A stretch of 64,000 nucleotides of DNA from an uncultured Bradyrhizobium sp. (GCF_936928535.1 NZ_CAKZHY010000166.1:1-64000), one strand, 5' to 3'. Counted from the stretch's first letter, positions 32,528 through 58,078 are shown. The notes: a model not told the origin generated them from the letters alone. A program made the numbers and translations.

Positions 32528-33928
32528 ATGATGTCAGATAGCGCTGCAGCAATTCCACTTCGCGCGCTCCCTTCAGATGACCACGTTTTGGCGCGGGTGC
32601 TCGCGGCGTACGTGGCATCGGCCACAATCTGGCTTTTATTCGCCACGGCCGTGGGACTTCTCGTCAGCTTTAAATTCGCCTACCCTGATTTCGCGACCAC
32701 GCCGGCGCTGTCGTTCGGTCGGCTGCGCGCGATACACACCAGCGGAACATTTTATGCCTGGGCGAGTCAGGCACTGATTGGGCTTGCGCTGTTCGTCGCG
32801 GCTCGCAGCTCTGGCACAAGACTCTACAGCGAGCGCCTCGCATGGATCAGTCTTGCGCTCCTCAATCTTGCCGCGGTACTGGGCACTGTCACGCTCGATT
32901 TGGGGTTCACCTACGGCCAGGAGTATCGCGAATGGCTATGGTGGATTCGCGTAATCCTTGGACTCGGCTTGATCACCGCGGCCTGGAATTTGATCGCCAC
33001 CGTCGAGCGCCGCGATGGCGAGCATATCTATATTTCTAACTGGTATACTATCGGGGGTACGCTGTGGACGATCGTTATGGTCCTGGTGTCAATGTTGCCC
33101 TGGTATCAGTACGGCCTGGGTCAAGTCGCGGTCCAGGGATTCTTCATGCATAACGCTGTCGGACTATGGTTCACGCCTCTATCGCTCGGTGTGTCATACT
33201 ATGCGCTGCCGAAGCTCCTAAACCGGCCGATCTATTCATATTCTCTCGGTGTCTTCGCATTCTGGACCAATCTCATCTTTTATCCGATCATCGGCGCTCA
33301 TCATTTTGAATTCAGTCCACTACCATGGTGGCTGCAGACTACGGCCATTGTCTTCAGTGTGGCCATGCTCGTTCCAGTGTTGAGCGGCTCGGCAAACTTC
33401 CTTCTCACCTTCCGGGGGACTCACGAATGGGTATATCGTTCGCCCGCGGTTTTCATCCTCGTTGGCGTCTACGGCTATTTACTGGGATCCGCGCAAGGCA
33501 CATTCGAGGCGTTTCGCTCGCTGCAGCAGCTTTGGCATCTGACGAATTACACGGTAGGGCACTCGCACCTCACGATGTATGGCTTCGTCACCTTCGCGAT
33601 CTGGGGCGGCATCTATGCACTGTTGCCGCGCGCAACCGGAAAGTGTCCCTATAATCTAGCGATGGGCATTCATTTTTGGCTGTCTGCCGTCGGTGTAGTC
33701 ATCTATGTTGCGGCGCTGTCGGCCGCCGGCACCATTCAGGGGCTCGACTGGTTCCGAGGTCTCACCTTCATCCAGTCGGTCGAAGATGCCGCGCCATACT
33801 GGATGTGGCGCTCCGTCGGCGGCTCCTTGATGTTTGCCGGCCATCTAGTCTTCGCTTTCAACGTCTGGACGATGACCTACGGTAGGTCCCGCGCCGAGAT
33901 TGCCACAGCCAAGACAGTGCCAGCATGA
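32528..33928 (+). CDS. ccoN: cbb3-type cytochrome oxidase subunit I variant (CcoN-like)
   Basis: 466 residues, 12 or more helices. Ligands align with known CcoN: His70 and His347 for low-spin heme b, His208, His258 and His259 for CuB, His345 for heme b3. The crosslinking tyrosine is present as Tyr252, six residues before His258, which supports oxygen reduction rather than NO reduction. The conserved glutamate of the FEGPMM segment, 22 residues before the heme b3 histidine, is Gln323 here (SAQGTF). A GGAG site precedes the ATG. It overlaps the next gene by 4 bases (ATGA). Inner membrane proton-pumping terminal oxidase core. The subunit set downstream is unusual (no separate ccoP). Confidence 0.9.
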   Translation: MMSDSAAAIPLRALPSDDHVLARVLAAYVASATIWLLFATAVGLLVSFKFAYPDFATTPALSFGRLRAIHTSGTFYAWASQALIGLALFVAARSSGTRLYSERLAWISLALLNLAAVLGTVTLDLGFTYGQEYREWLWWIRVILGLGLITAAWNLIATVERRDGEHIYISNWYTIGGTLWTIVMVLVSMLPWYQYGLGQVAVQGFFMHNAVGLWFTPLSLGVSYYALPKLLNRPIYSYSLGVFAFWTNLIFYPIIGAHHFEFSPLPWWLQTTAIVFSVAMLVPVLSGSANFLLTFRGTHEWVYRSPAVFILVGVYGYLLGSAQGTFEAFRSLQQLWHLTNYTVGHSHLTMYGFVTFAIWGGIYALLPRATGKCPYNLAMGIHFWLSAVGVVIYVAALSAAGTIQGLDWFRGLTFIQSVEDAAPYWMWRSVGGSLMFAGHLVFAFNVWTMTYGRSRAEIATAKTVPA

Positions 33929-35253
33929 ACAAGACATTTGTTATTTCTGGCGGATCAACGCTGATCTACACTGGATTAGCGGTTCTTATGGGCGTGCTGC
34001 CGGGGATCTGGCTGTCGAAGGTGCCGCCAACGCCTGGCCTTAAGCCACTAAGCCCGATTGAGGCGCGGGGGCGAGATGTTTATGTCTCAGAGGGCTGCTT
34101 CTATTGCCATACCCAGCAAGTACGCCCGCTCTCCGGAGATAAGCCGTTTGGCCGCCCGTCTGCGCCCGGCGATTACGCCTACCAGACTACGGAATTGCTA
34201 GGTTCGGAGCGCACTGGTCCAGACTTGAGCAATATCGGCGCGCGGCAATCGAGTAACATATGGCAGTACATCCATCTCTATCAACCACGTGCAGTTGTAC
34301 CACAATCAATCATGCCGGCCTTCCCCTGGCTGTTTAGGACCGTGCGCAAACTGCCACCAGGAGAGAAAGCGGTGCCATTGCCGCCCCAGTTCGCGCCAGG
34401 CGATATCGTCATCCCCAACGACGACGGCAAGGCGCTAGTTGCCTATCTGCTATCACTGAAACAGCCCCCACTCGCTCCGGCACAGACCCCCGCCGCGACT
34501 AAGAGCCCTTCGACCGGGTCCCTAAGGTTTGACGCCACCAAGGGCGCTGCATTGTTTGCCGACAACTGTGCATCCTGCCACGGCGCGGAAGGAATGGGTG
34601 TGCCGGGAACGTTTCCGCCGCTTGCTGGAGATGCGGTGGTGAACGACGCCAATCCCACTGCACACATTGGCACCGTGCTGCACGGACTTAGCGGGCGCGT
34701 AATCAACGGTCAGAGCTATGAAGCGCAAATGCCCGGGTTTTCCGATCAACTGTCTGATCAGCAGATTGCTGACATCATCGATCACGAGCGATCCTCGTGG
34801 GGCAACCGCGGTGCCCTAATCAGTGCGGCTGATGTCGTCGCGGCCCGTGCCAATGAACCATTGCAGAAGCAAGCAGCGACCCCGAAAGAGGCGTCCCCAG
34901 TAACGGCCCCAGCATCGACGTTCGATGCTGCGGAAGGATCGAAGCTCTTCGCCGACAACTGCGGCGTCTGTCACGGTGCAGAGGGAAAAGGCGTTCCTGG
35001 CACATTTCCGCCACTTGCGGGCGATCCGGTCGTTAATGCCACTGATCCTGCCGAACACATCGCCACCATGCTGCGCGGCCTCAGTGGCAAGGTAATCGAC
35101 GGCCAGAAGTACGAAGTGGAGATGCCGCCGTTCGCTGACCGACTCTCTAATCAGCAGATCGCCGATATCATTAATCACGAGCGCACGTCCTGGGGTAACC
35201 ACGGGGCGTTGGTCACGCCTGCCGAGATCACGAAGCTCCGCAGCAAAAAATAG
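33925..35253 (+). CDS. ccoO: Fused CcoO with two tandem cytochrome c domains
   Basis: 442 residues. One N-terminal membrane helix (about 7-30), then a CcoO-type heme c domain: CFYCHTQQVRPLSGD at 58, with axial Met130 (SIMPAFPWL). After a Pro/Ala linker come two extra class I cytochrome c domains with CASCH (215-219) and CGVCH (346-350), Met ligands near 269 and 400. The extra domains are close copies of each other (HGAEG.GVPGTFPPLAGD, QQIADII.HER.SWGN), so they arose by internal duplication. They replace the diheme CcoP subunit of standard cbb3 enzymes, giving three c hemes in one chain. Periplasmic side; overlaps ccoN by 4 bases. Confidence 0.9.
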   Translation: MNKTFVISGGSTLIYTGLAVLMGVLPGIWLSKVPPTPGLKPLSPIEARGRDVYVSEGCFYCHTQQVRPLSGDKPFGRPSAPGDYAYQTTELLGSERTGPDLSNIGARQSSNIWQYIHLYQPRAVVPQSIMPAFPWLFRTVRKLPPGEKAVPLPPQFAPGDIVIPNDDGKALVAYLLSLKQPPLAPAQTPAATKSPSTGSLRFDATKGAALFADNCASCHGAEGMGVPGTFPPLAGDAVVNDANPTAHIGTVLHGLSGRVINGQSYEAQMPGFSDQLSDQQIADIIDHERSSWGNRGALISAADVVAARANEPLQKQAATPKEASPVTAPASTFDAAEGSKLFADNCGVCHGAEGKGVPGTFPPLAGDPVVNATDPAEHIATMLRGLSGKVIDGQKYEVEMPPFADRLSNQQIADIINHERTSWGNHGALVTPAEITKLRSKK

Positions 35254-35262
35254 GAGGTGACG

Positions 35263-35505
35263 ATGATCGATACGATTAACGCCTGGATTCTCTCAGCGCT
35301 TGGCTACCTCTGCACCTCGTCTGCGACAGCTGGTGGTGCTGGCGGTCCTAACCTTTCCGGACCACTGCTCGGCAACGTGCTAGTGGCGGGGGGAGCCGGG
35401 CTCGTGACAGTCAGTTGCATCGTGGCAGCGGTGTGGATGCTTATCGCCCCGGGCGAACGAGACCCCGATCATCCAAAATATCGCGTCCTGCATGTCGACC
35501 GTTAA
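35263..35505 (+). CDS. Small membrane subunit of the oxidase operon
   Basis: 80 residues from the ATG behind a near-perfect AGGAGG with 5-base spacing. Short N-terminal amphipathic part, a Gly-rich segment (TAGGAGGPNLSGP), one strong membrane helix (about 38-60), and a charged tail PGERDPDHPKYRVLHVDR. It starts 9 bases after the fused ccoO gene. It occupies the place of CcoQ but is not recognisably homologous. Probably an assembly or stabilising subunit. Confidence 0.75.
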   Translation: MIDTINAWILSALGYLCTSSATAGGAGGPNLSGPLLGNVLVAGGAGLVTVSCIVAAVWMLIAPGERDPDHPKYRVLHVDR

Positions 35506-35518
35506 AGGAATGCAGCAC

Positions 35519-35965
35519 GTGCCCGATCCGCGCATCCGAATCTATCTCGACGAAGCGACCGATCCAGTGACCGATCAGAGGCCGCCGGCGCAGATAGCGC
35601 TCGACACAAAGAGCCTCGCCGACGGCGAACACGCCCTGCGCATCGAAGCCCAGGACGCCACCGGCCAGGTCGGCATCCGACGCCTCCAATTCCAAGTTCG
35701 CAACGGCCCTGGGATCACAGTTAGCGGGCTTGGTGATGGGGCCCTCGTTCACGGTACGCTCCGCTTCATAGTCAACGCGTTTGGAGCCGAAGAGCCATTT
35801 GAGCCGCACCGGGCGGAATCGCCCTCGCCGATCCCTGTTTGGGTGTGGGTGCTGAGCCTCCTCATCGTTGCTTGGACCGCCTGGTATATTGCAACGCTTT
35901 GGGACGTTCCGACGGACTACGCCAAAACCCCAACCTACTCCACGTCAATGAATCCCTTCAAATAG
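35519..35965 (+). CDS. Membrane-anchored Ig-like protein of oxidase operon
   Basis: About 149 residues from a GTG placed 9 bases after AAGGA; the frame opens at 35492 inside the previous gene. The N-terminal ~90 residues read as a beta-sandwich of the kind found in Ig-like/cadherin-like repeats (LADGEHALRIEAQDATGQVG), with no heme or copper ligands. Then a Pro-rich linker and one C-terminal helix (VWVWVLSLLIVAWTAWYIA) with a short cytoplasmic tail. The orientation would put the sandwich outside, next to the cytochrome c domains. Last gene of the oxidase operon. The function is unknown. Confidence 0.75.
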   Translation: MPDPRIRIYLDEATDPVTDQRPPAQIALDTKSLADGEHALRIEAQDATGQVGIRRLQFQVRNGPGITVSGLGDGALVHGTLRFIVNAFGAEEPFEPHRAESPSPIPVWVWVLSLLIVAWTAWYIATLWDVPTDYAKTPTYSTSMNPFK

Positions 35966-36014: not shown

Positions 36015-36302
36015 ATGCCACGCATCATAGTCAACAAACACGGCTTCCCCGGCGTCAGGAAGCGCTCGGACCATGCTAGGCGGCGAAAGCCCTACTATGC
36101 CCGCATCAGCACTGGTTGCGAAACCTTCATTTATAGCAAGAATTTCGCGACAGCCGAAGAAGCCGCTTCGGAATATCAACGAATGAAAGCTGAAAAATCA
36201 TCGCCATATCGTCCAGGGACCACCGGTCAGCATCCTGCGACGAGCTACCCAACAAGTAAGAGGTTTGATCATGGAGATTCGCCTCGGCACCAGGCGAAGT
36301 GA
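36015..36302 (+). CDS. AP2-like DNA-binding domain protein
   Basis: 95 residues. Residues about 8-58 follow the AP2/integrase-type pattern: GFPGVRKRSD, then YYARISTG, a turn, FATAEEAASEYQRM. This three-strand plus helix domain binds DNA in plants, phages and bacteria. The tail is low-complexity. Its end overlaps the start of hemC by about 32 bases in another frame, so the two are probably co-transcribed and may be translationally linked. It could regulate this locus or be a mobile-element remnant; small AP2 proteins are frequent in Bradyrhizobium. Confidence 0.7.
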   Translation: MPRIIVNKHGFPGVRKRSDHARRRKPYYARISTGCETFIYSKNFATAEEAASEYQRMKAEKSSPYRPGTTGQHPATSYPTSKRFDHGDSPRHQAK

Positions 36303-37209
36303 CCTGGCCCGCTGGCAAGCCAGTCACGTCGCCAATCTTATTCGCGGCGTCGAGCCGGCCGCTGAGGTAAGGATTGTTTTCACAAGTTCGGTTGGCGATA
36401 GAGATCGAAGGTCGTCTTTTCATCAGTTTGGGGGCGTCGGAGCATTCACGAAGGAGGGCGAAGACACGCTTATGCGAAAGGAAGTTGACCTGGTCGTTCA
36501 TTCTCTCAAGGATCTTCCGACTAGATTGCGGCAAGGCTTGGTATTAGCGGCTGTTCCCAAGAGAGAGGATGCTCGTGACGCCATTTGTGGCGTTACACTA
36601 GATCAGCTACGACCGGGGCTACGCGTCGGCACCGGATCAATTCGCCGCAAAGCGCAACTTCTCGCTCTATGCAGTGGTCTCGATGTTCGACCCATCCGCG
36701 GGAACGTTTCTCCAAGGCTTCGTAAGGCAAAGATCCGGGACGGAATAGACGCTACTCTATTGGCCGCGGCAGGACTGTCCCGGCTAGGGTTGCTACATGA
36801 GGCCTCACAGGTTCTAGACGCGAATGTCTTTCCGTATGCAGCCGGCCAAGGCGCTCTCGCGGCCGAAGCTCGCGAAGAAGATACGGAACTCATAGCATTG
36901 CTTCAAAAGATAGAAGATCGGAAATCGCGCACTGAAGTAGATGCAGAGCGCGCCCTGATGAGAAGTCTCGATGCGGGTTGCAGCCTACCCATCGGCGTTT
37001 CCGCCACGTGGGTCGCCGGGACACTAACGCTTCGAGGACAGGTGACTCATCCAGATGGTAAATCGAAGATTGCTGATGAATGCGTTGGTCCGGCCGACCA
37101 GGCCGAGGCAATCGGTAGACGTCTCGGGCACAAGCTTCTTCAGCAAGGTGCAGGCGAGATACTGGAGGCCGTGCATCGTATGATGGAAGTACAGGGAGTG
37201 CTTCCATAG
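36271..37209 (+). CDS. hemC: Hydroxymethylbilane synthase (porphobilinogen deaminase)
   Basis: 312 residues. Joins four porphobilinogen molecules into hydroxymethylbilane, the linear precursor of uroporphyrinogen. Family motifs: LGTRRSDLARWQA, HSLKDLPT, the phosphate-type and arginine segment GSIRRKAQLL, RGNVSPRLRK and the cofactor cysteine in DAGCSLPIG, which carries dipyrromethane. GAGG lies 7 bases before the chosen ATG. Its stop overlaps the GTG of hemE by one base. No hemD is adjacent. Cytoplasmic. Confidence 0.95.
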   Translation: MEIRLGTRRSDLARWQASHVANLIRGVEPAAEVRIVFTSSVGDRDRRSSFHQFGGVGAFTKEGEDTLMRKEVDLVVHSLKDLPTRLRQGLVLAAVPKREDARDAICGVTLDQLRPGLRVGTGSIRRKAQLLALCSGLDVRPIRGNVSPRLRKAKIRDGIDATLLAAAGLSRLGLLHEASQVLDANVFPYAAGQGALAAEAREEDTELIALLQKIEDRKSRTEVDAERALMRSLDAGCSLPIGVSATWVAGTLTLRGQVTHPDGKSKIADECVGPADQAEAIGRRLGHKLLQQGAGEILEAVHRMMEVQGVLP

Positions 37210-39122: not shown

Positions 39123-40988
39123 TTATGATTTCATGCCGAGGCTCCGCGACGCGTCTCCGATAAGCTCCCGGTGCGAAGTTCCCCAGAGCAGGACAGTCCC
39201 AAGGGCGGCAGAGAGAATCGAGGCGGCGAACACAGCTATTTTTGCGGCCGAGAAGTCAGTGGCGTTTGGAAATGCCTGACCGGCGATGAAGAGAGACATC
39301 GTGAAGCCAATCCCAGCGAGGGCTCCTGCCCCGCCCAACTGCCGCCACGAGTACTCGTCCGGCTTGACGGCTAGGCCTGTGCGTACAGCCGCGGCGGCCG
39401 CGAGGAAGACGCCGAGCGGCTTTCCTAAAGCGAGACCAGCGACGATCGCGGCCATGAGCCTGCCATGGCCGACGAAGACGCCTGGGTTGATCATCATTCC
39501 CGCATTCGCCAATGCGAAGATTGGGAGGATAGCGTAGCTCGATCGCGCGCCGGCATGTCGCAGCAGCCGATCGGCGGGCGACTCAAGTCTCTCGTAGATT
39601 GCCTCGAGCGCGTGCAGAGCCGAAGTAGAGGGGCCGTTCCTAAGAACTTCACCCTCGCGCCGAGCCTCGGACGCGATGATGGTGCTCGCCTGCGTCATCA
39701 GGGCTTCTAAGTTGGCGGGCGGTCGCGTCGGAATAAACAACGCAAGTACCACCCCGGCCAACGTAGGGTGCAGGCCGCCAGCGTATACGGACGCCCAAAG
39801 CGCAACGCCCAACAGGATGTAGGGCGACAGAAAGTAGACTCCAGATCGGCTCAGAAGCACCAGCGCAACTACAACTGTGGCGGCCGCAGCAAGGTAAGCC
39901 AGATGGATCTCACCAGAGTAAAACAGAGCGACGACGACGATCGCGCCGATGTCGTCAACGATGGCCGCCGCAGTGAGGAAGATACGCAGCTCCACAGGGA
40001 CGCGGGAGCCCATCACCGCGATCAAAGCAACCGCGAACGCGGTGTCGGTCGCCATCGGGACACCCCATCCGCGCGACCACGGCCCCGCTGGGATGATCAG
40101 CGCATACAGAAGCGCCGGTCCGACCATGCCGCCGAGCGCGGCCACGATCGGAAGCGCGGCCGAACGACGGCTTGCGAGATGGCCCACCGTCATCTCGCGC
40201 TTGACTTCCAATCCAACGACCAGGAAGAACACTGTTAACAGCCCGTCATTGACCCAATCGAAGATAGGCTTCCGAAAGGCTATGTTGCCCAAGCTCACGC
40301 CGAACTCGCGGCGCCAGAGCGCCTCGAAGTGCGGCCCGATGGGCGAGTTCGTCAAGATGATCGCCGCCACGGCCGCGAGGACGAGCAGAATGCCGGCTGA
40401 CGGCCCCCAGCTCGCAAAGTCCAAGGCAGCCGTACGAACGCGGTGACCGAGTGTGCCAAGCATCGCATCGACGAAAGAACTCTCGTCCCACGGCCCGTCG
40501 TAGCGCCGACGGTTGATGTAGAAACTTGGCGTGAATCTCACTCCGCTCGCGCGCGCGCTTGCGATGTCCGACTCCACTCTCGACCTCGCCCGCCGTACGG
40601 CTTCGCTCTCGCCAAGCGAGAGGTCCGCGTTCACACCGAGGTCTGCGGCCACCGCGAAGAGATCGTCTTCCGTGAGCTGCGCCGATCTCGTCATAAGCTT
40701 GATGTGCGCGGACCAGAACGCTTCGGGCGTCCGAGCGAGCTCAACGATCTGTGCAGCCCAGAATGAAAGACTGTTGTTCGCGAGCGGCTTGTGACGGAAC
40801 GCATAGCAGATGCGGTCGCCGAGTTGATCGCGCGCCTGCGCGATGCGATCGTTGGCAGCCCTGCAGTGCGGACACGCGTAGCTGCCGTACTCGACCAGCG
40901 AGATCTCGGCGTCGGGAGGGCCGAGCACATGTTCCGTATCGTGATCGACCGGTCGATCAAGTCGGCCTGACGGAAATATGAGCTTCAT
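39123..40988 (-). CDS. nhaA: DsbA-like thioredoxin fused to NhaA Na+/H+ antiporter
   Basis: 621 residues. Residues about 15-185 form a DsbA/thioredoxin-fold domain with active-site CPHC at 39-42 and the cis-Pro loop GVRFTPSFYINRRRYDG. From about 195 a complete NhaA antiporter follows, with FFLVVGLEVKREM, ATDTAFAVALIAVMG, and the key aspartates in AAIVDDIGAI. No signal peptide precedes the thioredoxin domain, so its side of the membrane is uncertain. NhaA-thioredoxin fusions exist in databases; the cysteines might sense redox or tune transport. Adjacent leftward histidine kinase gene lies 30 bases upstream and could be co-transcribed. Confidence 0.92.
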   Translation of the reverse strand: MKLIFPSGRLDRPVDHDTEHVLGPPDAEISLVEYGSYACPHCRAANDRIAQARDQLGDRICYAFRHKPLANNSLSFWAAQIVELARTPEAFWSAHIKLMTRSAQLTEDDLFAVAADLGVNADLSLGESEAVRRARSRVESDIASARASGVRFTPSFYINRRRYDGPWDESSFVDAMLGTLGHRVRTAALDFASWGPSAGILLVLAAVAAIILTNSPIGPHFEALWRREFGVSLGNIAFRKPIFDWVNDGLLTVFFLVVGLEVKREMTVGHLASRRSAALPIVAALGGMVGPALLYALIIPAGPWSRGWGVPMATDTAFAVALIAVMGSRVPVELRIFLTAAAIVDDIGAIVVVALFYSGEIHLAYLAAAATVVVALVLLSRSGVYFLSPYILLGVALWASVYAGGLHPTLAGVVLALFIPTRPPANLEALMTQASTIIASEARREGEVLRNGPSTSALHALEAIYERLESPADRLLRHAGARSSYAILPIFALANAGMMINPGVFVGHGRLMAAIVAGLALGKPLGVFLAAAAAVRTGLAVKPDEYSWRQLGGAGALAGIGFTMSLFIAGQAFPNATDFSAAKIAVFAASILSAALGTVLLWGTSHRELIGDASRSLGMKS

Positions 40989-47150: not shown

Positions 47151-47720
47151 TCACTTTTTGAGTCCAGGATAGCCTTGAACATAGATCCAGTCGGTCGCTT
47201 TCGCAGGGATGTGGCAACCTAGACAATCTGAGCGGAAGTTCGTTGAGGTCGTTTTCATCGGATCACCCGCATCAAACCAGGACCAGCCCCAACCATTGCC
47301 CCACAACTTGTTACCGGGGTGGCTGTCCTTGCCGTCCTTCACCATCATGAACCATCCTTTTAGGCTTTGCTGATGGCTAACGGTCCCAGTCGTCATTTCC
47401 GAAGTGGCCGCGGCGTACACCTCTTTCACCAAGATCGAACCCTCCGGAAATTTGCCAGTCGCCCGATAGGCCGCCGCAGTGCCGGGCGACGCGTAGACCA
47501 CGTGCATCTCCTTAGCGCCTTTGTCACCTGCAACAGACCAGCTCCCAAGGAATTCGTAAGCCGTTCGGTAGTCCTTCGGGATATGCATGTTGCCTGCCCC
47601 GTCGACGAGTTGCTCCTGCGCAGGCGCGGCCTGGCTCGGTCCGAGCTGCGATACGAGGCACCCGACGGTCACGGCAATGAATGAAGCGGACACAACGGCC
47701 GCACTTCCGAGAAATTTCAT
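47151..47720 (-). CDS. Cytochrome P460 family protein (second)
   Basis: 189 residues; ATG behind GGGAGAA (a GTG one codon earlier is possible). Signal peptide or N-terminal anchor ends at SQAAPA. The P460 fold shows in FLGSWSVAGD, the FPEGSILVKEVY strand whose Lys99 would crosslink to the heme, GNGWGWSWFDAGD, and the heme site CLGCHIPAKATDW. P460 cytochromes oxidise hydroxylamine and/or bind NO. Periplasmic; its maturation needs Ccm. It follows the first P460 gene by 11 bases. Confidence 0.88.
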   Translation of the reverse strand: MKFLGSAAVVSASFIAVTVGCLVSQLGPSQAAPAQEQLVDGAGNMHIPKDYRTAYEFLGSWSVAGDKGAKEMHVVYASPGTAAAYRATGKFPEGSILVKEVYAAATSEMTTGTVSHQQSLKGWFMMVKDGKDSHPGNKLWGNGWGWSWFDAGDPMKTTSTNFRSDCLGCHIPAKATDWIYVQGYPGLKK

Positions 47721-47731
47721 CACGGTTCTCC

Positions 47732-48406
47732 CTACTTCTTGATAGACGGATTCTCGTTGGGCGGCATTTTCTTGGAGTGATTCTGGCCGGGCGGTAGCGG
47801 CACTTCGTCAAGCAACGCGTAGAACTGCGTCCATACGTCGTCCCGCTTCGCGTTTGCGATGTGACAATAGCCGCATTCCTCGACAGGCCGGACTTTCGCA
47901 GAGGCGGCCTTTGGTTCAAAATGGTTGAAGTTGAAATAGCCCCAGCCGTGACTTGCCTTATATCTTTCGGAGTCCTTGACAGTCACATCCGCACCGTTGA
48001 AGGGACCCGGGAAGAACCCTTTACCCGATGGCTCAGTTCTCGAACCGTCCGGATTGGTGGCGGGCTGCAAGAGCTGCAGTTCCTTCACAAAAATCGTTCC
48101 TTCAGGAAAGACTCCCGTTTTTTTGTAGATCTCGTAAGAGCCAGGCTCGATATATACGTTGTGAAATTCCGGGAAATTAGCCTGGGGCGGGTTTAAGAAA
48201 TTGGGTGTTGTTGGGGATCCAACGTAAACCCATTCGTGAAAATTCTTCGGCAGAATGAGGTCGCCGTCTTTCGTGTATTCAGGAAGATAGCGGCCGGTCG
48301 CGTGCCAATCGTCGGGTGGTGGTAGTTGCGGTTGCTGCGCGAAAACTGCGGTTGCTAGAGCGCCAACGCCAAGGACGGTGGAAAGTGCCAATACGGTGCG
48401 TCTCAT
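47732..48406 (-). CDS. Cytochrome P460 family protein (first)
   Basis: 224 residues with a signal peptide ending AVFAQQP. Same fold as its neighbour: EWVYVGSPTTPN, FPEGTIFVKELQ with crosslink Lys108, HGWGYFNFNHFEP, and heme motif CGYCHIANAKRDDVW (178-182). It has an insertion of about 30 residues before the second half and a Pro-rich tail. AAGGAGAG lies upstream of the ATG. First gene of the three-gene operon. The two P460 proteins are clearly diverged copies. Role in hydroxylamine/NO detoxification is inferred from family. Confidence 0.88.
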   Translation of the reverse strand: MRRTVLALSTVLGVGALATAVFAQQPQLPPPDDWHATGRYLPEYTKDGDLILPKNFHEWVYVGSPTTPNFLNPPQANFPEFHNVYIEPGSYEIYKKTGVFPEGTIFVKELQLLQPATNPDGSRTEPSGKGFFPGPFNGADVTVKDSERYKASHGWGYFNFNHFEPKAASAKVRPVEECGYCHIANAKRDDVWTQFYALLDEVPLPPGQNHSKKMPPNENPSIKK

Positions 48407-49314: not shown

Positions 49315-49394
49315 ATAACTGAGACGAGTGCGAAGTGCGCTGCGTGATAGGCTATGGTCGACCTATGCTCGAGCGACGGATAGGGAAAGTTGAC

Positions 49395-50771
49395 ATGGAC
49401 GATCTGGACGTATCGGCTGAGCCTCAAGCGAAGCATTCAGCGCACGGAAGCTCCGATAATGGACATTCGTGTACGGACACACACTCGTGCTCGGACATAT
49501 CGTGCATGAAACGCGCGTTGACGACGCCTCCAGCGAGCTTCGTCTGGGGTTCCGTCAATTGTGCGAACGAAATATACGAGCGCTATTTCAACGACTCTCT
49601 TGAGCGCCTGCGTGGGGAACAACGCTATCGCGTCTTCGCTAACATCGAACGCGTCTGCGGCCGCTTCCCAACCGCCAAATGGCGCAGTCCTGACGGGGCC
49701 GTTACTGATATCACGGTTTGGTGCTCGAATGATTACCTGGGCATGGGACAACATCCGGAGGTCGTGAGCGCGCTGACGGCCGCGGCGCACCGCTGCGGTG
49801 CAGGAGCAGGTGGAACTCGCAACATCGCAGGGAATAGTTCGCCCTTAGTTGATTTAGAGGAAGAACTTGCTGATCTGCATGGCAAGGAGGCAAGTCTCGT
49901 CTTCACCTCCGGCTATGTATCGAATCAGGCCAGCATATCCACAATCGGTAAGCTGATCCCAGGGTGCGTAATCTTTTCTGATGCATTCAACCACAATTCG
50001 ATTATCGAAGGCATTCGTCAATCAGGTTGCGAAAAGCGGATTTTCCGCCACAACGACCTTGGTCACCTTGAGGGCTTGCTGCGCGAGGCAGGAAGCGGCC
50101 CCAAGCTCGTCGTGTTCGAATCCGTCTACTCAATGGACGGCGATGTGGCGCCGATTGGCGCAATCTGCGACCTTGCCGAGCGGTATGGGGCAATGACCTA
50201 CCTTGATGAGGTTCACGCCGTCGGCCTCTATGGCGCTCGGGGCGGCGGAATCAGCGAGCGCGAAGGCGTGATGCACCGCTTGACGGTGATCGAGGGTACT
50301 CTCGCTAAGGGATTTGGCTGCATTGGCGGCTATATCTCGGCATCGCGATCTATTTGCGATGCGGTGCGCAGCTTCGCGCCCGGATTCATCTTCACGACCG
50401 CCCTCCCTCCACCGATTGCCGCCGCAGCGCGTGCGTCTGTTCGCCACTTGAAACACTCGTCTGCCGAGCGCGAAGCACAACAACGACAGGCAGCCGCAAC
50501 GAAAGAGGCACTCAAAGCCGCCGGGCTTCCGGTTCTACCGACCGAAACCCACATCGTGCCTGTGATTGTCGGCGATGCGGAGTTGTGCAAGGCGGCAGCC
50601 GATCGCCTTCTACAGCGCCACGCCATCTATATCCAGCCGATCAACTATCCGACGGTCCCGCGCGGGACGGAGCGGCTGCGGATCACGCCGTCGCCTTATC
50701 ACGCAGATACCCACATAGCGGAACTCGCAGCTGCGCTGGCTGAGACCTGGGGCGCCCTTTCTCTTTCCTGA
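49395..50771 (+). CDS. hemA: 5-aminolevulinate synthase with Cys/His-rich N-terminus
   Basis: 458 residues from the preferred ATG; the frame opens at GTG 49335 and a later ATG lies at 49506. Condenses glycine and succinyl-CoA to 5-aminolevulinate, the committed step of heme synthesis in alphaproteobacteria. The PLP-dependent core is complete: [72 protein letters not shown], and the PLP lysine in GTLAKGFGC. Compared with usual ~405-residue enzymes it has about 55-60 extra N-terminal residues, including [14 protein letters not shown]. The extension could be regulatory or a wrong start. Upstream of ccmAB on the same strand. Confidence 0.92.
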
Positions 50772-51153: not shown

Positions 51154-51780
51154 ATGGATAAAATACAGCGCTCCCATCTGCTGATCGAAGATCTGTCTGT
51201 GGCGCGCGGCGAGCGCATCCTGCTCGGCGGGATATCTTTGCAACTAAGCTCGGGCCAAATCGCCGAAGTGACGGGTCCCAACGGAGTGGGCAAATCTACA
51301 CTCTTGCGCGCGATCGCCGGTTTTTTTCCACTGAGATCCGGCCGCATGTCGTGGGTGGAATCCGAAGCTGCGGATTCTGTGCCCCTGGCAGAACGCCTCC
51401 ACTACGTGGGCCATCTCGACGGGCTGAAATCGGCGTTGACCGCCCGCGAAAACCTCGAGGTCGGCCTGGGATTTTTGGGGCGGGACCGGCGAACCGCCTT
51501 ACAGGCGCTGGACTGCATGGAATTGGCTCATGTTCTCGATCTGCCAGTCGGTTATCTCTCCGCGGGGCAGCGTCGCCGCGTCGCATTGGCCCGGCTCTTG
51601 ATCGTCGATCGACCTCTATGGCTGCTCGACGAACCGCTGACTGCACTCGACCGGCACGCGCGCGCCTTACTGAAGGCTATCGTCGCGGGCCATCTCGGAA
51701 GCGGAGGATTGACGCTGACCGCGACCCACGAACCTCTTGGTCTGGCAGGGACAATCCAAGTCAGGCTTGGAACCAGGTAA
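51154..51780 (+). CDS. ccmA: Heme exporter ATP-binding protein CcmA
   Basis: 208 residues. ABC ATPase of the CcmABCD complex that releases holo-CcmE from CcmC. Walker A GPNGVGKST, signature LSAGQRRRVALARL and Walker B WLLDEP are intact; the short length is normal for CcmA. Cytoplasmic, partner CcmB follows after a 130-base gap, which is longer than usual and holds no gene. Confidence 0.95.
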   Translation: MDKIQRSHLLIEDLSVARGERILLGGISLQLSSGQIAEVTGPNGVGKSTLLRAIAGFFPLRSGRMSWVESEAADSVPLAERLHYVGHLDGLKSALTARENLEVGLGFLGRDRRTALQALDCMELAHVLDLPVGYLSAGQRRRVALARLLIVDRPLWLLDEPLTALDRHARALLKAIVAGHLGSGGLTLTATHEPLGLAGTIQVRLGTR

Positions 51781-51910
51781 TGGCCATTTCGCTGAAGGGC
51801 GGTCGCAGCCCAGGTAGCTGTCTGTCTCGAGGTCGGGCAAGAAGAGATCACGCTGCTCTTCCGATTTCAGTGGAGCGGTGTCAACCCAATAGCGATACCG
51901 GACGGGAATC

Positions 51911-52573
51911 ATGACCCGTATTCTCCTCGTCGTTTTTGTTCGCGACCTCATGCTGGCCCGCCGCATCGGGGGCGGCGGGATTCTCGGTCTGGTCTTTTTC
52001 CTCAGTCTCGTAACGGTCGTACCATTCGCAATCGGGCCTGACCTGCGTTTGCTGTCGCGGATCGGCCCGGCAATTCTATGGATAGCGGCACTTCTCGCGA
52101 GTCTATTGGGCCTCGACCGTCTGTTTCAGGCGGATCAAGAGGACGGTTCGCTCGACCAAATGTTGCTGTCGCCGGCGCCCTTAGAACTCATTGTTCTTGT
52201 GAAGTGCATGGCTCACTGGTTTATGACAGGGCTGCCGCTCGTTATGCTCTCGCCCCTCTTTGGCCTGATGTTTAATTTGGATGGCCCGGCCCTCCGATCG
52301 GTAGCAGCAACGTTGTTGGTTGGTACGCCGACGTTCACCTTTCTAGGGGCGATCGGGGCGGCCCTTACTGTCACCCTGCGGCGCGGCGGTCTGTTGCTAT
52401 CGATCCTCGTCGTGCCACTAGCCGTACCGGTGCTGATCTTCGGTGTCTCCGCGGCGCAAAGTGCCACAATTCCCTTTTTGACACCGTTCCTGGTCCTCTG
52501 CGCGCTCGGGCTCGCGTCCATCGCGCTCGCTCCGATAGCTGCGGCCTCAGCTCTTCGTAGCGCAGGAGAATAA
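51911..52573 (+). CDS. ccmB: Heme exporter permease CcmB
   Basis: 220 residues with six hydrophobic helices. The family pattern shows in FVRDLMLARRIGGGGILGLVFF, the DRLFQADQEDGSLDQMLLSPAPLELIVLVKCMAHW segment that contacts CcmA, and GAIGAALTVTLRRGGLLLSILVVPL. Inner membrane. A weak ribosome site (CGGGA) precedes the ATG. Convergent with ccmH, 84 bases away. Confidence 0.95.
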   Translation: MTRILLVVFVRDLMLARRIGGGGILGLVFFLSLVTVVPFAIGPDLRLLSRIGPAILWIAALLASLLGLDRLFQADQEDGSLDQMLLSPAPLELIVLVKCMAHWFMTGLPLVMLSPLFGLMFNLDGPALRSVAATLLVGTPTFTFLGAIGAALTVTLRRGGLLLSILVVPLAVPVLIFGVSAAQSATIPFLTPFLVLCALGLASIALAPIAAASALRSAGE

Positions 52574-52657
52574 TGAGGCATGCAACGATTGAGTTTTCTT
52601 TCGGGGCACTGTTGTGGAACGATTTCGGCATTGCCCGAACTTGACCTCAGGAGGAGC

Positions 52658-53134
52658 CTAAAGCGGGCTATCGGAGTCAAACAAAACGGCAAGCTGATCC
52701 CGCTCGGCTTGGCTCAATGGTGCCGCTGGCGTGGACTGCTGGCGGCGCAATCCGAACAGGAGAGCGATGGCGCCCGCTCCGAGCACCAAAGCCGGCATTC
52801 CCCAAAGGAGAGCGGTTTCCAAGTCGATTGGCGGTTTCAGCAGGATAAAGTTTCCGTAGCGCTTTACCAGAAAAGCGCGGACCTGCTCATCACTCTCTCC
52901 TAGCTTAAGGCGCTCGCGCACTAGCAGGCGAAGGTCCCGCGCGAGTTCTGCCTTGGAATCGTCGATAGACTCATTTTGACAGACCAGACAACGCAGTCCG
53001 GCGGAAATAGCGCGCGCGCGTACCTCGAGTTTCGGGTTGGTCAGGACTTCATCCGGCTGAACCGCCCTCGCCAAGCTAGGAGCGACGCTTGCGAGTACGA
53101 TCGAAAGCAGAAGAATGCGACGAAGCCGCGTCAT
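52658..53134 (-). CDS. ccmH: Cytochrome c-type biogenesis thiol protein CcmH (CycL)
   Basis: 158 residues. Signal peptide, then the redox motif LRCLVCQNESIDDS, which reduces apocytochrome CxxCH cysteines, a three-helix domain, and one C-terminal helix (LLWGMPALVLGAGAIALLFGL). The short CcmH form, without the CcmI-like extension. Periplasmic side. Its ATG overlaps the ccmF stop by 4 bases. Last gene of the ccmCDG-IEFH run. Confidence 0.95.
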   Translation of the reverse strand: MTRLRRILLLSIVLASVAPSLARAVQPDEVLTNPKLEVRARAISAGLRCLVCQNESIDDSKAELARDLRLLVRERLKLGESDEQVRAFLVKRYGNFILLKPPIDLETALLWGMPALVLGAGAIALLFGLRRQQSTPAAPLSQAERDQLAVLFDSDSPL

Positions 53135-55128
53135 TCGGCGGGCTCCGGCGCTGCAGGGCCGTCGGCGACGCGAAGGCGAGCCGCGCGGCGCGCGAAGCCA
53201 ATTCGGAGGCGTCTGTCGGACAAGGATACCATCCCTCCGAACGCCATAATGACCGCACCGATCCAGATGCTCGTCACGAGCGGCTTCCAGAACAGGCGCG
53301 CATCAACCGAACCATCCGCGTGGCGGTCCCCAAGCGAAATGTAGATCTGCCCAAAACTCAGCGTTACGATGCCTGCCTCGGTGACGGTTGTCTGTCGTGT
53401 GGGAAAGCTGCGCTTGGCTGGCTCGACGGCTGTCACGTATGCACCGCCCTTGCTGATAATCGTATGGCCGACGAGCTCTGTGTAGTTCGGGCCCTGCCGC
53501 GATTGAAATTTCTCTATGGTCGCTTGATAAGGGCCAAGATCGATCCTCTGACCTAACTTGACGGTCGCGATCCGCTCCACACCCCAACCCGTCGCCGCCA
53601 AGCCCATGAGTGTAAGGCCCAGGCCCGCGTGAGCGATCGCCCCACCCCACGCGGAGCGCGGCAGCCCGATCGCGCGGGCTAGCATAACCCGGCCGCCTTG
53701 CCCTCGTGCCCAGATACGCGACGCCACATCGGTGAACGAACCGACGATGAGGTAGACGGCGAGACCGAGACCGGCTGCGGAGAAGACGGAGCCGCCCCGG
53801 ATGACGGCAACAAGCACAATTGAGACTACAAGACCACCCAAGGCTGCGAACGTTACCCGTTGCGCTGCGCCGAGCAGGTCGCCGCGTTTCCAGGCGATCG
53901 ACTGACCGAGCGGCATCAGCAGAACGATAGGCGCTACGAGCGGGCCGAGCGCTAAATTAAAAAACGGCGCGCCGACCGAGATCTTGTCTCCGGTCAGCGC
54001 CTCAAGCGCGAGCGGATAGAGCGTGCCGGTCAGAACCGTGACGCAGCAGGTAGTCAGCAGCAGGTTGTTGACTGCCAGCGCACTCTCGCGTGAAACGGGT
54101 GCGAACACGCTACGCTCGCTCAGGGGGGGCGCACGCCACGCGTAGAGCGCGAGTGGTCCGCCGATGAATACGGTCAGTATGACCAAGATGAAGACCCCGC
54201 GAGCTGGGTCACTGGCGAACGAATGGACGGAGGTAAGTACTCCGGAGCGCACGAGGAACGTACCCAGCAGCGACAGCGAGAACGTAAGTATCGCCAGGAA
54301 CAGTGTCCAAATCTTGAGGGCTTCACGCTTTTCCATGACAGCAGCCGAATGGAGGAGCGCGGTGCCCGCAAGCCAGGGCATTAGTGACGCGTTTTCGACC
54401 GGATCCCAGAACCAGAATCCGCCCCAGCCTAGGGTGTAATAGGCCCAGTACGACCCCATGGCGATGCCAAGCGTCAAAAATATCCAGGCAATCAGTATCC
54501 AGGGCCGCACGTAGCGGGCCCAAGCAGCGTCTAGCCGGCCGCTGATCAGCGCGGCTACCGCGAAGGAGAACACGATCGAAGAACCGACATAGCCGACGTA
54601 AAGCAGCGGCGGGTGTATGGCGAGGCCCGGGTCTTGAAGCAGCGGATTAAGGTCCTGGCCCTCAAACGGCGCCGGAAATCGTCGCAAGAAGGGATCGGAG
54701 GTGAACAGAATGAAACTGAGGAAGGCAAGCGAGATCCAGCCTTGCACGGCCAGCGTATTCGCGCGTAGCTCGTTTGCCATGGCGTGTTCGAAAATCGCTA
54801 CAGCCGCTCCAAAAGCCGCGAGAATCAGAACCCAAAGCAGCATGGATCCTTCGTGATTGCCCCAGACGCCCGCGATTTTGTATATAAGTGGTTTGGTGGT
54901 GAGTGAGTTCTCGGCGACTGTCACGAGACTGAAGTCAGACGCCACATGGGCGTAAGTCAGTGCTGCGAAGGCATAACCTAGGAGCAGGAACTGGGTGATT
55001 GCGGCAGGGACCGCGATTGAAGTAAGTGCCGTATCTCCAGTACGGGTTCCCCAGAGTGGCAGAATTGATTGAAGCAGCGCGACGGCGAGAGCCAAAGCGA
55101 GCGCGTAATGTCCGGTTTCGATGATCAT
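53131..55128 (-). CDS. ccmF: Heme lyase core subunit CcmF (CycK)
   Basis: 665 residues with about 15 membrane helices. Tryptophan-rich WWD region: WGGFWFWDPVENASLMPWL; also GNHEGSMLLWVLIL and the periplasmic histidine-bearing segments. It transfers heme from holo-CcmE to apocytochrome together with CcmH and CcmI. Overlaps ccmE and ccmH by 4 bases on each side, so it is translationally coupled. Confidence 0.96.
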   Translation of the reverse strand: MIIETGHYALALALAVALLQSILPLWGTRTGDTALTSIAVPAAITQFLLLGYAFAALTYAHVASDFSLVTVAENSLTTKPLIYKIAGVWGNHEGSMLLWVLILAAFGAAVAIFEHAMANELRANTLAVQGWISLAFLSFILFTSDPFLRRFPAPFEGQDLNPLLQDPGLAIHPPLLYVGYVGSSIVFSFAVAALISGRLDAAWARYVRPWILIAWIFLTLGIAMGSYWAYYTLGWGGFWFWDPVENASLMPWLAGTALLHSAAVMEKREALKIWTLFLAILTFSLSLLGTFLVRSGVLTSVHSFASDPARGVFILVILTVFIGGPLALYAWRAPPLSERSVFAPVSRESALAVNNLLLTTCCVTVLTGTLYPLALEALTGDKISVGAPFFNLALGPLVAPIVLLMPLGQSIAWKRGDLLGAAQRVTFAALGGLVVSIVLVAVIRGGSVFSAAGLGLAVYLIVGSFTDVASRIWARGQGGRVMLARAIGLPRSAWGGAIAHAGLGLTLMGLAATGWGVERIATVKLGQRIDLGPYQATIEKFQSRQGPNYTELVGHTIISKGGAYVTAVEPAKRSFPTRQTTVTEAGIVTLSFGQIYISLGDRHADGSVDARLFWKPLVTSIWIGAVIMAFGGMVSLSDRRLRIGFARRAARLRVADGPAAPEPAE

Positions 55129-55622
55129 CTGGTGGTCCCATCAGCTGGGATGTTTCGTGGGAGCGGCGCTAATTGCGCTCGCGCAGATCTTTCGTTGCGC
55201 CAAGTACCTTCTTGCTTGAGCTTGTCAGCTACCTCCTTGGGCATATATCGCTCGTCGTGTTTTGCTAGCACGGTGTCCGCATGAAAACGGCTCGGTCCTT
55301 CCACGGTGCCCTCGGCGACGACGCCCTGTCCTTCCCGGAAGAGATCCGGCAACAATCCGGTGTAGCTGACTTCGACGTCGTGTTTTAAGTCTGTCACCGC
55401 GAAGATGACAGTCGACGAACCCTCGTGAGTAAGAGAGCCACTTTTAACTAGGCCGCCGATGCGCAGCCGGGTGCCAGGCGGCGGCGCCTTTGCGGCCAGT
55501 TCGCTTGGCCCATAAAAAAATACAATACTGTCCCGCAACGCGAACAGGATGAGCCCTATCGCGATCGTCAAAGTGACGCCAGCTGCGCTGATGATAGCAA
55601 GGCGCCTGCTCTTTCGCGTCAA
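55125..55622 (-). CDS. ccmE: Heme chaperone CcmE (CycJ)
   Basis: 165 residues. One N-terminal membrane anchor and an OB-fold periplasmic domain: RLRIGGLVKSGSL, TDLKHDVEVSYTGLLPDLFREGQGVVAEG. The heme-attachment site is intact as LAKHDERYMP (HxxxY). It binds heme covalently and carries it from CcmC to CcmF. It starts 3 bases after ccmI ends and overlaps ccmF by 4. Confidence 0.96.
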   Translation of the reverse strand: MTRKSRRLAIISAAGVTLTIAIGLILFALRDSIVFFYGPSELAAKAPPPGTRLRIGGLVKSGSLTHEGSSTVIFAVTDLKHDVEVSYTGLLPDLFREGQGVVAEGTVEGPSRFHADTVLAKHDERYMPKEVADKLKQEGTWRNERSARAQLAPLPRNIPADGTTR

Positions 55623-55625
55623 GAT

Positions 55626-56321
55626 CTACTCCTCTAAACGAAGCTGTCTGACGAGTTCATCGACGCGAGCCGACGCTTGCGCGTCGTCTGCTAGCTGAGC
55701 ACGTGCGCTTGCGACGGCCGCCTCAGCTTTCTTGTGCTCACCCAATGCCGCGTAAGACCTAATAAGTTGTAGCCATCCTTGAAGGTGATGTCCGTCCTTC
55801 GATAGCTTCTCGGCGAGCTCCGCTACCATTCCTCGGATCGCGTTGCTCCGTTGCTCTGGACGGAGCCTTTCAATGTCAGCTCCCGCTTGGCCGGCGTGGA
55901 TGTCAGGAACTGCGGCAGCGAGGTTAAAATCTGCATTGGACTGCCTCGATGCGATCGGCATGTCAGGTTGGCTGGGAGCGCCGACTTTGAGGTACGACGC
56001 GAATGCGACGAGCGGCAGGACTAAGACGATCGCCAAAGCTGCGGCGCGTCGCTGACCTCCGCGGCGCGACGTATGCGACCAGCCCTCGGGCGCCGAGTTG
56101 AGTGAAGCGAGCAGCCGGCGCTCGATTTCGGCGCGAGTCGTCACAGAGTCCTCAGGTGCTAGCATTCCGCTGCGCACGTCCTCATCCGTTTCGGTCAGAA
56201 GATCGCGATAGAACGTCACATCGGAATCGCGAGCGTGAAAAGCTTCGCGCCGCTCAGAGAGCGACCGGGCCAGCGCCAGCACGACTGACGACGTCATCAT
56301 TCCAAAAATGGCCCACACCAC
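55626..56321 (-). CDS. ccmI: Apocytochrome chaperone CcmI (CycH), short form
   Basis: About 231 residues from a GTG with GGAGG 11 bases upstream; the frame opens at 56360. N-terminal helix, a cytoplasmic loop with FYRDLLTETDEDVRSGML (typical CcmI), a second helix (AALAIVLVLPLVAFASYLKVG), then only one or two TPR units (LQGWLQLIRSYAALGEHKKAEAAVASARAQL). Rhizobial CycH is usually near 365 residues, so the C-terminal part of the periplasmic region is missing. It may still hold apocytochrome tails through its TPR part. Confidence 0.85.
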   Translation of the reverse strand: MVWAIFGMMTSSVVLALARSLSERREAFHARDSDVTFYRDLLTETDEDVRSGMLAPEDSVTTRAEIERRLLASLNSAPEGWSHTSRRGGQRRAAALAIVLVLPLVAFASYLKVGAPSQPDMPIASRQSNADFNLAAAVPDIHAGQAGADIERLRPEQRSNAIRGMVAELAEKLSKDGHHLQGWLQLIRSYAALGEHKKAEAAVASARAQLADDAQASARVDELVRQLRLEE

Positions 56322-56527
56322 GTTTTCAAAGACCTCCGTTCGTCCTCGCCACCGCACCATCCGCCGGCATGCGCCGCCAGTAAGGGTCGGTCCACCTCAC
56401 TGTTCCGCTTTCATTGCCAACTCGGAATTCCCGAACAATGCAGCGGACGGGGCACTACAACGCTGGGGCAAGAAACGATCCTTCTTGCATTCAATTCCAG
56501 AGGGATGGAGAGCGTGCAATGCAACCG

Positions 56528-57151
56528 TCATGGGCCCTCAGCCTCGGCAATGGCGTCCATCAAACCAGGCAGGCTTACATCCGAGATGCCACCAACCAGC
56601 TTGTATACAATTGTGCCATCGCCCTTGATCACATATGTCTCGGGAACGCCATAGACGCCGAAATCAATCCCCGTTCGGCCCGATGGATCAGTGCCGACCT
56701 GTGCGAACGGGTTGCCGTGAGCGGCAAGATAGGCCAGCGCAGTTTTGGGATCGTCTTTGTAGACAATCCCGGAGAGTTTCACGCCATGTCGCTGCAGCGT
56801 GGGGTCCCTTGCCAATGCCATCAGGGCCCCTTCTTCTTGCCTACATTCAACGCACCATGACGCGAACACGTTTAAGATCGTCACGTGCCCTCTCCGCAAA
56901 TCTGCGCTCGACAAGCCAGGTGGAGCGGATGTTGAAAGCCCTTCGAGCGGCATCAGCGCAAATTGCGGTACTGACCTGCCGATCAGAGCTGAGGGCACGA
57001 GTGAGGGGTCACCGGCCCCGAGCCGCACCAGAAGCAATGTTGCAATTCCGCAGAAGACCAATAATGGGATCACCACCCCCAAGCGGGCCAGTGCGCGTCG
57101 GCGCGTCGAGGCGCGCAATGAAACGTGAGTTGAGGCCTGGATGTTACTCAT
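56528..57151 (-). CDS. ccmG: Thiol:disulfide oxidoreductase CcmG (DsbE/CycY)
   Basis: 207 residues. N-terminal membrane anchor, then a thioredoxin fold with ASWCVECRQEEGAL (active-site CVEC rather than the usual CxPC), and the cis-proline loop YGVPETYVIKGDG. Keeps apocytochrome and CcmH thiols reduced. The ATG overlaps the ccmD stop by 4 bases. About 200 bases separate it from ccmI, so the run may be split into two transcripts. Confidence 0.93.
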   Translation of the reverse strand: MSNIQASTHVSLRASTRRRALARLGVVIPLLVFCGIATLLLVRLGAGDPSLVPSALIGRSVPQFALMPLEGLSTSAPPGLSSADLRRGHVTILNVFASWCVECRQEEGALMALARDPTLQRHGVKLSGIVYKDDPKTALAYLAAHGNPFAQVGTDPSGRTGIDFGVYGVPETYVIKGDGTIVYKLVGGISDVSLPGLMDAIAEAEGP

Positions 57152-57300
57152 GCGCGACCGCGCCGTTCCGAGTGCTCAAGAAGGCGCGCCAACGTACGGT
57201 GCTGAAGGCCATAGTCGATAAACACCGCCACGATCATTCCCGCCAGGACGGTCCCCGTCACCAGAAATGCCGCCATTATGAATCCGTCATGTCGCAACAT
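57148..57300 (-). CDS. ccmD: Heme exporter protein CcmD
   Basis: 50 residues, too short for normal ORF cut-offs. One helix (FIMAAFLVTGTVLAGMIVAVFIDY) followed by a basic tail with the family-typical RTLARLLE. It stabilises CcmE with CcmC. It starts 4 bases after the ccmC stop and its stop overlaps the ccmG start, exactly where ccmD is expected. Confidence 0.88.
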   Translation of the reverse strand: MLRHDGFIMAAFLVTGTVLAGMIVAVFIDYGLQHRTLARLLEHSERRGRA

Positions 57301-57304
57301 ATGC

Positions 57305-58078
57305 TCAGGAACCTCTTTCGGCAGTCAGCATGCGAGCCATCGCCGCTTCGCCATTAGCGGCCCGCGTGATCGCGAGGCGTCGGGCTCGGCGTCGCATGAT
57401 CTCGTTACGAACTGACATGACGTGGAGCGTCACGAACAAGAGCGAGTATGCAAAGGCCATAACGATCAGCGGCCATAGCATCGAGCCAGCAATCGCCGAG
57501 CCCTCCATTCGGAACACCGACGCGGGTTGGTGAAGCGTGTTCCACCAATCAACCGAGAACTTCACAATCGGAATATCGATAAGACCTACCAGGGTCATAA
57601 TCGAAACTGCCCGTCCCGCCCTACTCGGGTCCTCGATTGTCTGCCAGAGCGCGATGAGACCGAGATAAATGAGAAGCAGAACCAGCATGGAGGTCAGCCG
57701 TGCATCCCAGACCCAATAAGTGCCCCACATTGGTTTGCCCCATAGCGAACCCGTGACGAGGCAAATGAAAGTGAAAGCTGCGCCGAGGGGCGCTGCCGCC
57801 TTTTGAGCCGCATCGGCGAGTGGATGACGCCATACCAAGGATCCGAACGCAGACACCGCCATGAATGCATAGGCAAGCATTGCGGTCCAGGCGGCGGGGA
57901 CGTGGATGTACATAATTCGCGCAGTTTCACCTTGCTGGTAGTCGGGGGGCGCGTCGAACGTTCCAAATAGACCAATCGCGAAGGCGACTGCTGTCGACCC
58001 CCAAAGCAAAGGCAGCAGCTTTGCGGCGACGCGCACGAAATTGCCTGGGTTGCTGTAGGCACTAAAGCTCAGCTTCAA
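57305..58078 (-). CDS. ccmC: Heme handling protein CcmC (CycZ)
   Basis: 257 residues, six helices. WWD motif GKPMWGTYWVWDARLTSMLVL and flanking histidines (YIHVPAAW, and one in the last loop) are present. Presents heme to CcmE at the periplasmic face. First gene of the leftward ccmCDG block; the 950 bases upstream carry no gene and should hold its promoter. Confidence 0.96.
   Translation of the reverse strand: MKLSFSAYSNPGNFVRVAAKLLPLLWGSTAVAFAIGLFGTFDAPPDYQQGETARIMYIHVPAAWTAMLAYAFMAVSAFGSLVWRHPLADAAQKAAAPLGAAFTFICLVTGSLWGKPMWGTYWVWDARLTSMLVLLLIYLGLIALWQTIEDPSRAGRAVSIMTLVGLIDIPIVKFSVDWWNTLHQPASVFRMEGSAIAGSMLWPLIVMAFAYSLLFVTLHVMSVRNEIMRRRARRLAITRAANGEAAMARMLTAERGS

Follow-up and report, generated by a model that had tools for sequence, protein, structure and literature searches.

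Oxidases of the cbb3 type normally combine a mono-heme CcoO with a di-heme CcoP, their three c hemes being spread over two subunits. Several described proteins and operons come close to the locus reported here. Bifunctional cbb3 subunit II/cytochrome c proteins (PRK14486, NF011054) join CcoO and a cytochrome c domain in one chain. The operons designated here C2-like, a label of this report for those of Azoarcus KH32C, Cupriavidus metallidurans CH34, Paraburkholderia and Indioceanicola located on plasmids or megaplasmids (L184-L187), are annotated as cbb3-type subunit I, subunit II and cytochrome c, with SCO in Azoarcus; they lack a di-heme CcoP and carry instead a mono-heme cytochrome c anchored by a transmembrane (TM) segment. 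On a plasmid of Phyllobacterium zundukense, subunit II (WP_100001625.1; L188:7389-9074) consists of CcoO and two further CxxCH domains. Last, the three-heme CcoP of Neisseria gonorrhoeae exemplifies the gain of an extra cytochrome c domain by a cbb3 subunit (PMC2924362).

The window analysed, a stretch of 64,000 nucleotides from an uncultured Bradyrhizobium sp. (NZ_CAKZHY010000166.1:1-64000), contains an operon with the gene order ccoN, fused three-heme ccoO (ccoO-c-c), a small one-TM gene of 82 aa, and a gene for an Ig-like domain with one TM helix (Ig-TM), and this order is kept in every complete relative (Table 1). In common with canonical ccoNOQP/fixNOQP (PDB 3mk7, 5djq, 6xkw, 9g6b), the encoded enzyme has the CcoN fold, the heme and CuB ligands, the cross-link Tyr, a mono-heme CcoO domain and a total of three c-type hemes. 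It differs in that the extra hemes are on CcoO and not on a di-heme CcoP, an Ig-TM protein is added, and there is no recognisable CcoQ. Judged from its sequence, the operon is not canonical cbb3 but represents a distinct C-family lineage.

Table 1 Oxidase operon and neighbouring heme and cytochrome c genes, with positions counted from the first nucleotide of the window.
Feature	Position	Strand	Remarks
ccoN-like catalytic subunit	32528..33928	+	466 aa; divergent C-family heme-copper oxidase; Pfam COX1 250 bits
three-heme CcoO-c-c subunit gene	33925..35253	+	442 aa
D1, inner duplicated cytochrome c copy	34555..34814	+	direct repeat; heme motif at residue 215
D2, outer duplicated cytochrome c copy	34948..35207	+	direct repeat; heme motif at residue 346
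small one-TM protein	35257..35505	+	82 aa; CcoQ position; no family match; conserved in relatives
Ig-like domain and one TM helix, putative headless CcoP-like subunit	35492..35965	+	157 aa; overlaps 82-aa gene
hemC	36265..37209	+	second genome copy; TIGR00212 276.9 bits
two cytochrome P460-type genes, adjacent	47151..48406	-	PF16694 98 and 90.8 bits; kept in three carriers
hemA (5-aminolevulinate synthase)	49335..50771	+	TIGR01821 635 bits; kept in three carriers
ccmA-like ABC gene, ccmB, ccmH, ccmF, ccmE, ccmC-like gene	51154..58078		Pfam; kept in three carriers

The fused gene, whose start overlaps the end of ccoN by 4 nt (ATGA), was described in the first-pass annotation as one open reading frame for CcoO and two cytochrome c domains, and this description held. 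The chain has CxxCH motifs at residues 58, 215 and 346; the mono-heme CcoO part of a C-family oxidase is present by the Pfam FixO cut-off (residues 13-139, 122.1 bits against 29.6), and Cytochrom_C (Pfam) matches two further stretches. Scores fell below the cut-offs of the CcoO equivalog TIGR00781 (117.5 against 200.65 bits), the di-heme CcoP model TIGR00782 (85.2 against 179.95) and NCBIfam PRK14486 (NF011054; 174.7 against 447), the last of which differs in having a single extra domain and 294 positions. The two C-terminal domains are near copies, as had been claimed: D1 and D2 form a direct repeat of 260 nt in the DNA, with 72% identity and a spacing of 393 nt, and are about 70% identical as proteins. 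Their heme Cys/His residues and distal Met (M269 and M400) are invariant among orthologues. Structure prediction gave a pTM of 0.39 for the Ig-TM protein and 0.32 for CcoO-c-c, a low confidence in both cases, and in the CcoO-c-c model the linkers flanking the extra domains, at residues 180-200 and 312-331, are of low confidence as well. The 561-aa subunit II of P. zundukense has two extra domains that are neither near copies nor of the same kind, and on sequence grounds this protein is judged to have arisen independently. The additional domain of N. gonorrhoeae is located on CcoP and derives from cytochrome c5, and is not CcoP's own domain moved (PMC2924362). These two proteins together indicate that heme addition to cbb3 subunits is recurrent.

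The CcoN protein scored 235.6 bits with the CcoN equivalog TIGR00780, below its cut-off of 583.15, and is 29-38% identical to every CcoN outside its own lineage, with values of about 30% for the canonical FixN/CcoN of the same genome, 34% for the P. zundukense protein, which has a very long branch, and 37-38% between the lineage and the C2-like CcoN. The canonical set of this genome, at C96, is a fixNOQP set with its own ccoN, CcoO and di-heme CcoP. A separate ccoP, which by the first-pass annotation would overturn its reading if the product co-purified with the CcoN of the operon, does exist, but it stands with its own ccoN and ccoO.

Alignment of 36 lineage members with 71 canonical CcoN sequences disclosed that the three CuB His, the two heme b His, the b3 His and the cross-link Tyr (Y252, at the helix VII position) are invariant, and the K-path residues Y223, N289 and Y317 and the calcium-site Glu pair are retained in the lineage. 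Unlike canonical cbb3, the K-channel S240 is replaced by Gly and the proximal E323 by Gln in 36/36 lineage members; E323 is also Gln in most C2-like CcoN. Residue roles follow those established for the cbb3 oxidases of P. stutzeri and V. cholerae. The PDB matches of CcoN are cbb3 and ba3 oxidases, and no NOR structure appeared among them at E<=0.001; by the criteria for cNOR/NorB (loss of the cross-link Tyr, an FeB-site Glu, similarity to NOR) the enzyme does not belong there, the Tyr being retained. As the ligands and cross-link Tyr are invariant but S240 and E323 are changed, the operon most likely encodes a C-family O2 reductase whose proton path and heme b3 surroundings are altered. As a separate observation, residue 261, two positions after the CuB His pair, is Glu in all split-layout members (see below) and in some fused-layout ones, Leu or Ile in the remaining lineage members, and usually His in canonical CcoN.

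The 82-aa open reading frame begins three bases after the fused gene. Its product has a conserved C-terminal PGE..D..HPK..V..DR pattern, and no homology to CcoQ was detectable by family profile matches. In the Ig-TM protein the N-terminal domain is weakly Ig-like (Big_7, Big_13), and a single long helix predicted near the C-terminus represents the TM segment. The same Ig-TM domain bears a C-terminal cytochrome c in Eremiobacterota with the split layout, and this cytochrome c is missing in Bradyrhizobium and in all fused-layout relatives. The claim that the operon has neither ccoP nor ccoQ is thus right for recognisable homologues, but had left these two small genes unweighed.

Comparison of the Ig-TM anchor with that of the C2-like cytochrome c gave an hhalign score of 39.6 (94%), while 40 shuffled profiles stayed at or below 18.7 and unrelated TM segments scored about 15, and the two anchors are regarded as related. 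FixP_N (PF14715) was matched by 5/19 Ig-TM proteins, below the cut-off and with a best E of 0.026; in the one split Eremiobacterota protein checked, the weak match sits on the TM helix. The direct hhalign comparison of Ig-TM with CcoP reached 6%, and that of the C2-like anchor with CcoP scored 26.5, which does not exceed the 28 of a control pair. Because this last score fails to beat its control, the Ig-TM protein is called a counterpart and not a proven homologue of CcoP: it may be the functional counterpart, and its homology to CcoP is suggestive. The V. cholerae cbb3 oxidase deprived of the CcoP heme domain reportedly still assembles. A Foldseek search with the Ig-TM model returned only non-significant Ig, FnIII and CopC-like matches, and the PDB sequence matches of the Ig-TM profile were rejected as spurious repeats. 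Neither plasmid carriage of the Ig-TM gene nor its presence on viral contigs was found, and FNR/FixK sites upstream of the operon were no more frequent than expected by chance.

The Ig-TM marker was detected in 11/272 genomes of the genus Bradyrhizobium, and in ten of these carriers the three-heme gene is intact beside it, which rules out a chance fusion or the sequencing or assembly error that the first-pass annotation had considered. In the eleventh carrier (L210, G1184), the small gene, the Ig-TM gene and hemC are kept, but of the fused gene just the end was found, and ccoN is missing from this place. Four further genomes of the genus have orthologues of the three-heme gene with 85-95% identity, and the gene is also present in Bradyrhizobium liaoningense SZCCT0420, B. 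nanningense and two Bradyrhizobium sp. strains. Among 289 alphaproteobacterial genomes, solely the CcoN of the window scored over the canonical level.

A scan of genome contigs yielded 19 loci of this operon type. A di-heme CcoO-c with a heme-free Ig-TM protein was found in Burkholderiales, Alcaligenaceae, Ideonella, Acetobacteraceae, one Terriglobia MAG and four 'bacterium' MAGs, these last counting among the positives of the Eremiobacterota phylum. Fusion and duplication had been taken for one step, a view contradicted by these di-heme fusions. The split layout, in which a mono-heme CcoO stands apart from an Ig-TM-cytochrome c subunit, was first seen in two Eremiobacterota loci. With an Ig-TM alignment as probe, 24/149 genomes of the Eremiobacterota phylum were positive, and the 16 further Eremiobacterota loci read were all of the split layout (18 split operons in total). 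Elsewhere the marker is rare (2/300 Burkholderiales, 1/248 Acidobacteriota). On these data the doubled domain, ccoO-c-c, appears limited to Bradyrhizobium. No earlier description of the operon type was found in the open-access literature searched, a scope outside which the key reviews of C-family diversity fall.

Canonical CcoP gave one weak match among 19 carriers of the Eremiobacterota phylum, these MAGs being incomplete, and the CcoO of the lineage was the sole FixO-family protein detected in the six such MAGs, likewise incomplete, that were checked. Since no convincing canonical ccoP accompanies the operon in these 19 carriers, the enzyme can probably work without one. The lone weak CcoP-like match is located at G541:C4:993695-994342.

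In the CcoN tree the lineage is monophyletic (support 100/99) and divides into a split-layout and a fused-layout group, the latter with moderate support (92/82). Bradyrhizobium is nested in the fused group, with a Burkholderiales MAG of the di-heme type beside it. Outside the lineage, the C2-like group is the next branch with good sampling, the placement of the long-branch Phyllobacterium row being uncertain. The C2-like operons lack the Ig-like domain and any annotated gene for a small one-TM protein, and their cytochrome c is not on CcoO; because this nearest outside group keeps its TM-anchored cytochrome c apart from CcoO, the split layout was taken as ancestral.

The tree of the C-terminal cytochrome domains together with the CcoP domains, which the first-pass annotation had proposed as a check, comprises 98 columns and was built without sequences of copper nitrite reductase (CuNiR). 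The domains borne by CcoO and those borne by Ig-TM group together (99/100), well away from the two CcoP domains, and this tree does not separate one transfer event from several. The two kinds of domain are approximately 50-59% identical, and some have a common 'FDY' lead-in. Of the PDB matches of the extra domain, the best were CuNiR tails (83 bits), CcoP reaching just 42 bits; tree and PDB scores together rule out canonical CcoP as the origin of the CcoO-borne cytochrome. The counterpart of CcoP, held at first to have vanished, would instead be traceable: the domain donor is the Ig-TM-cytochrome c subunit of the kind found in Eremiobacterota, and its anchor remains as the 157-aa gene of the window. 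Thus, from sequence, the layouts are ordered as a series from split (ccoO and Ig-TM-c) through fused (ccoO-c and headless Ig-TM) to ccoO-c-c, on which the CcoN and cytochrome trees agree.

All D1 and all D2 domains of Bradyrhizobium form sister clades, each starred in the tree, so that the duplication would have occurred once, later than the divergence from the di-heme relatives but earlier than that of the Bradyrhizobium species. Between D1 and D2 the synonymous sites have reached saturation, against dS values of 0.15-0.6 between species, and both copies have a dN/dS of 0.05-0.12, indicating purifying selection; these values argue for an old duplication with both copies in use, and not for the recent one initially supposed. 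No sign of gene conversion between D1 and D2 was found, each copy having its own clade.

The operon lies in an island of heme and cytochrome c genes. HemC adjoins it in all Bradyrhizobium carriers inspected. The ccmF gene is the second of the genome and belongs to a second cytochrome c maturation set; hemE, a DUF7482 gene beside the P460 genes, and cytochrome b561 are also included. Most of the island is retained in unchanged order in two other carriers, and in a third the ccm, hemA and P460 genes are on the other side of ccoN. The P460, heme and ccm neighbours were not found within a few kb of the operon outside Bradyrhizobium. This arrangement suggests a self-sufficient cytochrome module with a possible electron donor. 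That the island is one transferable respiratory module, whose CcoO-c-c takes electrons through its outer hemes from hydroxylamine- or NO-oxidising cytochromes P460, is a doubtful extension; if it were true, the added third heme would serve to adapt the enzyme to a new electron donor. The same region includes a 621-aa open reading frame (39123-40988, - strand), by eye a DsbA-like thioredoxin domain fused to a NhaA-type Na+/H+ antiporter, and a caspase-domain (Peptidase_C14) protein (43272-44135, + strand) that may have a signal peptide and is conserved at 67-90% in carriers.

Taken as a canonical cbb3 oxidase, the enzyme would have lost CcoP and replaced it directly with a fused, recently duplicated cytochrome c on CcoO. 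The presence of three hemes on one chain in an operon devoid of a di-heme ccoP agrees with this account, which is nevertheless highly improbable in view of a CcoN far outside canonical CcoN, of single-domain fusions older than the duplication, of the saturated synonymous sites, and of nearest relatives whose operons are also devoid of a di-heme CcoP. It is unlikely, too, that the cytochrome on CcoO was recruited from an unrelated cytochrome c, such as the tail of a three-domain CuNiR, the Ig-TM protein losing its own domain separately: the ranking of the PDB matches speaks for such a source, but the CcoO-borne and Ig-TM-borne domains resemble each other and share one supported group in the tree lacking CuNiR.

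The function of the operon might be sought elsewhere than in O2 reduction. C-family enzymes are able to reduce NO, and two P460 genes are conserved near the operon in Bradyrhizobium, so that an enzyme acting mainly as NO reductase, perhaps serving these cytochromes, was considered; it was judged quite unlikely, given the invariance of Y252 and of the three CuB His, the cbb3 and ba3 matches without any NOR, and the absence of P460 genes from the few kb around the operon in the other groups. The scarce occurrence in the genus, with one carrier incomplete, and the coexistence of a canonical fixNOQP set could mean that in Bradyrhizobium the operon is decaying or not expressed. This is very unlikely, since all domains are under strong purifying selection and three carriers have kept the operon together with heme and ccm genes.

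The preferred explanation, to which a probability of about 0.8 is assigned, is that of a distinct lineage of C-family O2 reductases in which a cytochrome domain moved to CcoO and was then doubled in Bradyrhizobium, the headless anchor being kept. Architecture, homology, order of changes, ligand conservation and purifying selection rest on computation; the assembly of a complex, the route of the electrons, the reduction of O2 and the role of the anchor are what we infer from them. The ancestral plan, still present in Eremiobacterota, would have comprised CcoN, a mono-heme CcoO, the small one-TM protein and an anchored mono-heme Ig-cytochrome c subunit. In one branch the cytochrome c domain would have moved off the Ig-TM subunit and become the C-terminal part of CcoO, so that the anchor was left heme-free, and in Bradyrhizobium the moved domain would have been duplicated, so that the enzyme has three c-type hemes on one subunit where the split ancestor had two on two. 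No precedent was found for a domain moved between subunits with its empty anchor kept.

The product most likely works as an O2 reductase in which CcoO carries a wire of three hemes. A periplasmic donor would pass electrons to the outer domains (D2, D1), from which they would proceed to the heme c of the CcoO domain, then to heme b and to heme b3-CuB of CcoN, where O2 would be reduced to water; the linkers around the extra domains would let D1 and D2 swing to the donor, and the headless Ig-TM protein would stay as a structural or assembly subunit. The initial proposal of a compact tri-heme subunit in the role of CcoP is consistent with this scheme as regards the extra hemes, which are where those of CcoP are expected, but not as regards the enzyme, which is not a canonical cbb3.

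The extant states, split, moved, and moved and doubled, offer a readable series for an electron-entry domain that changes subunits with its old anchor kept. The role of the membrane helix of CcoP and that of its hemes appear already separated in nature, and are hence testable. Last, a whole branch of the C-family is overlooked when genes are annotated by the ccoNOQP names.
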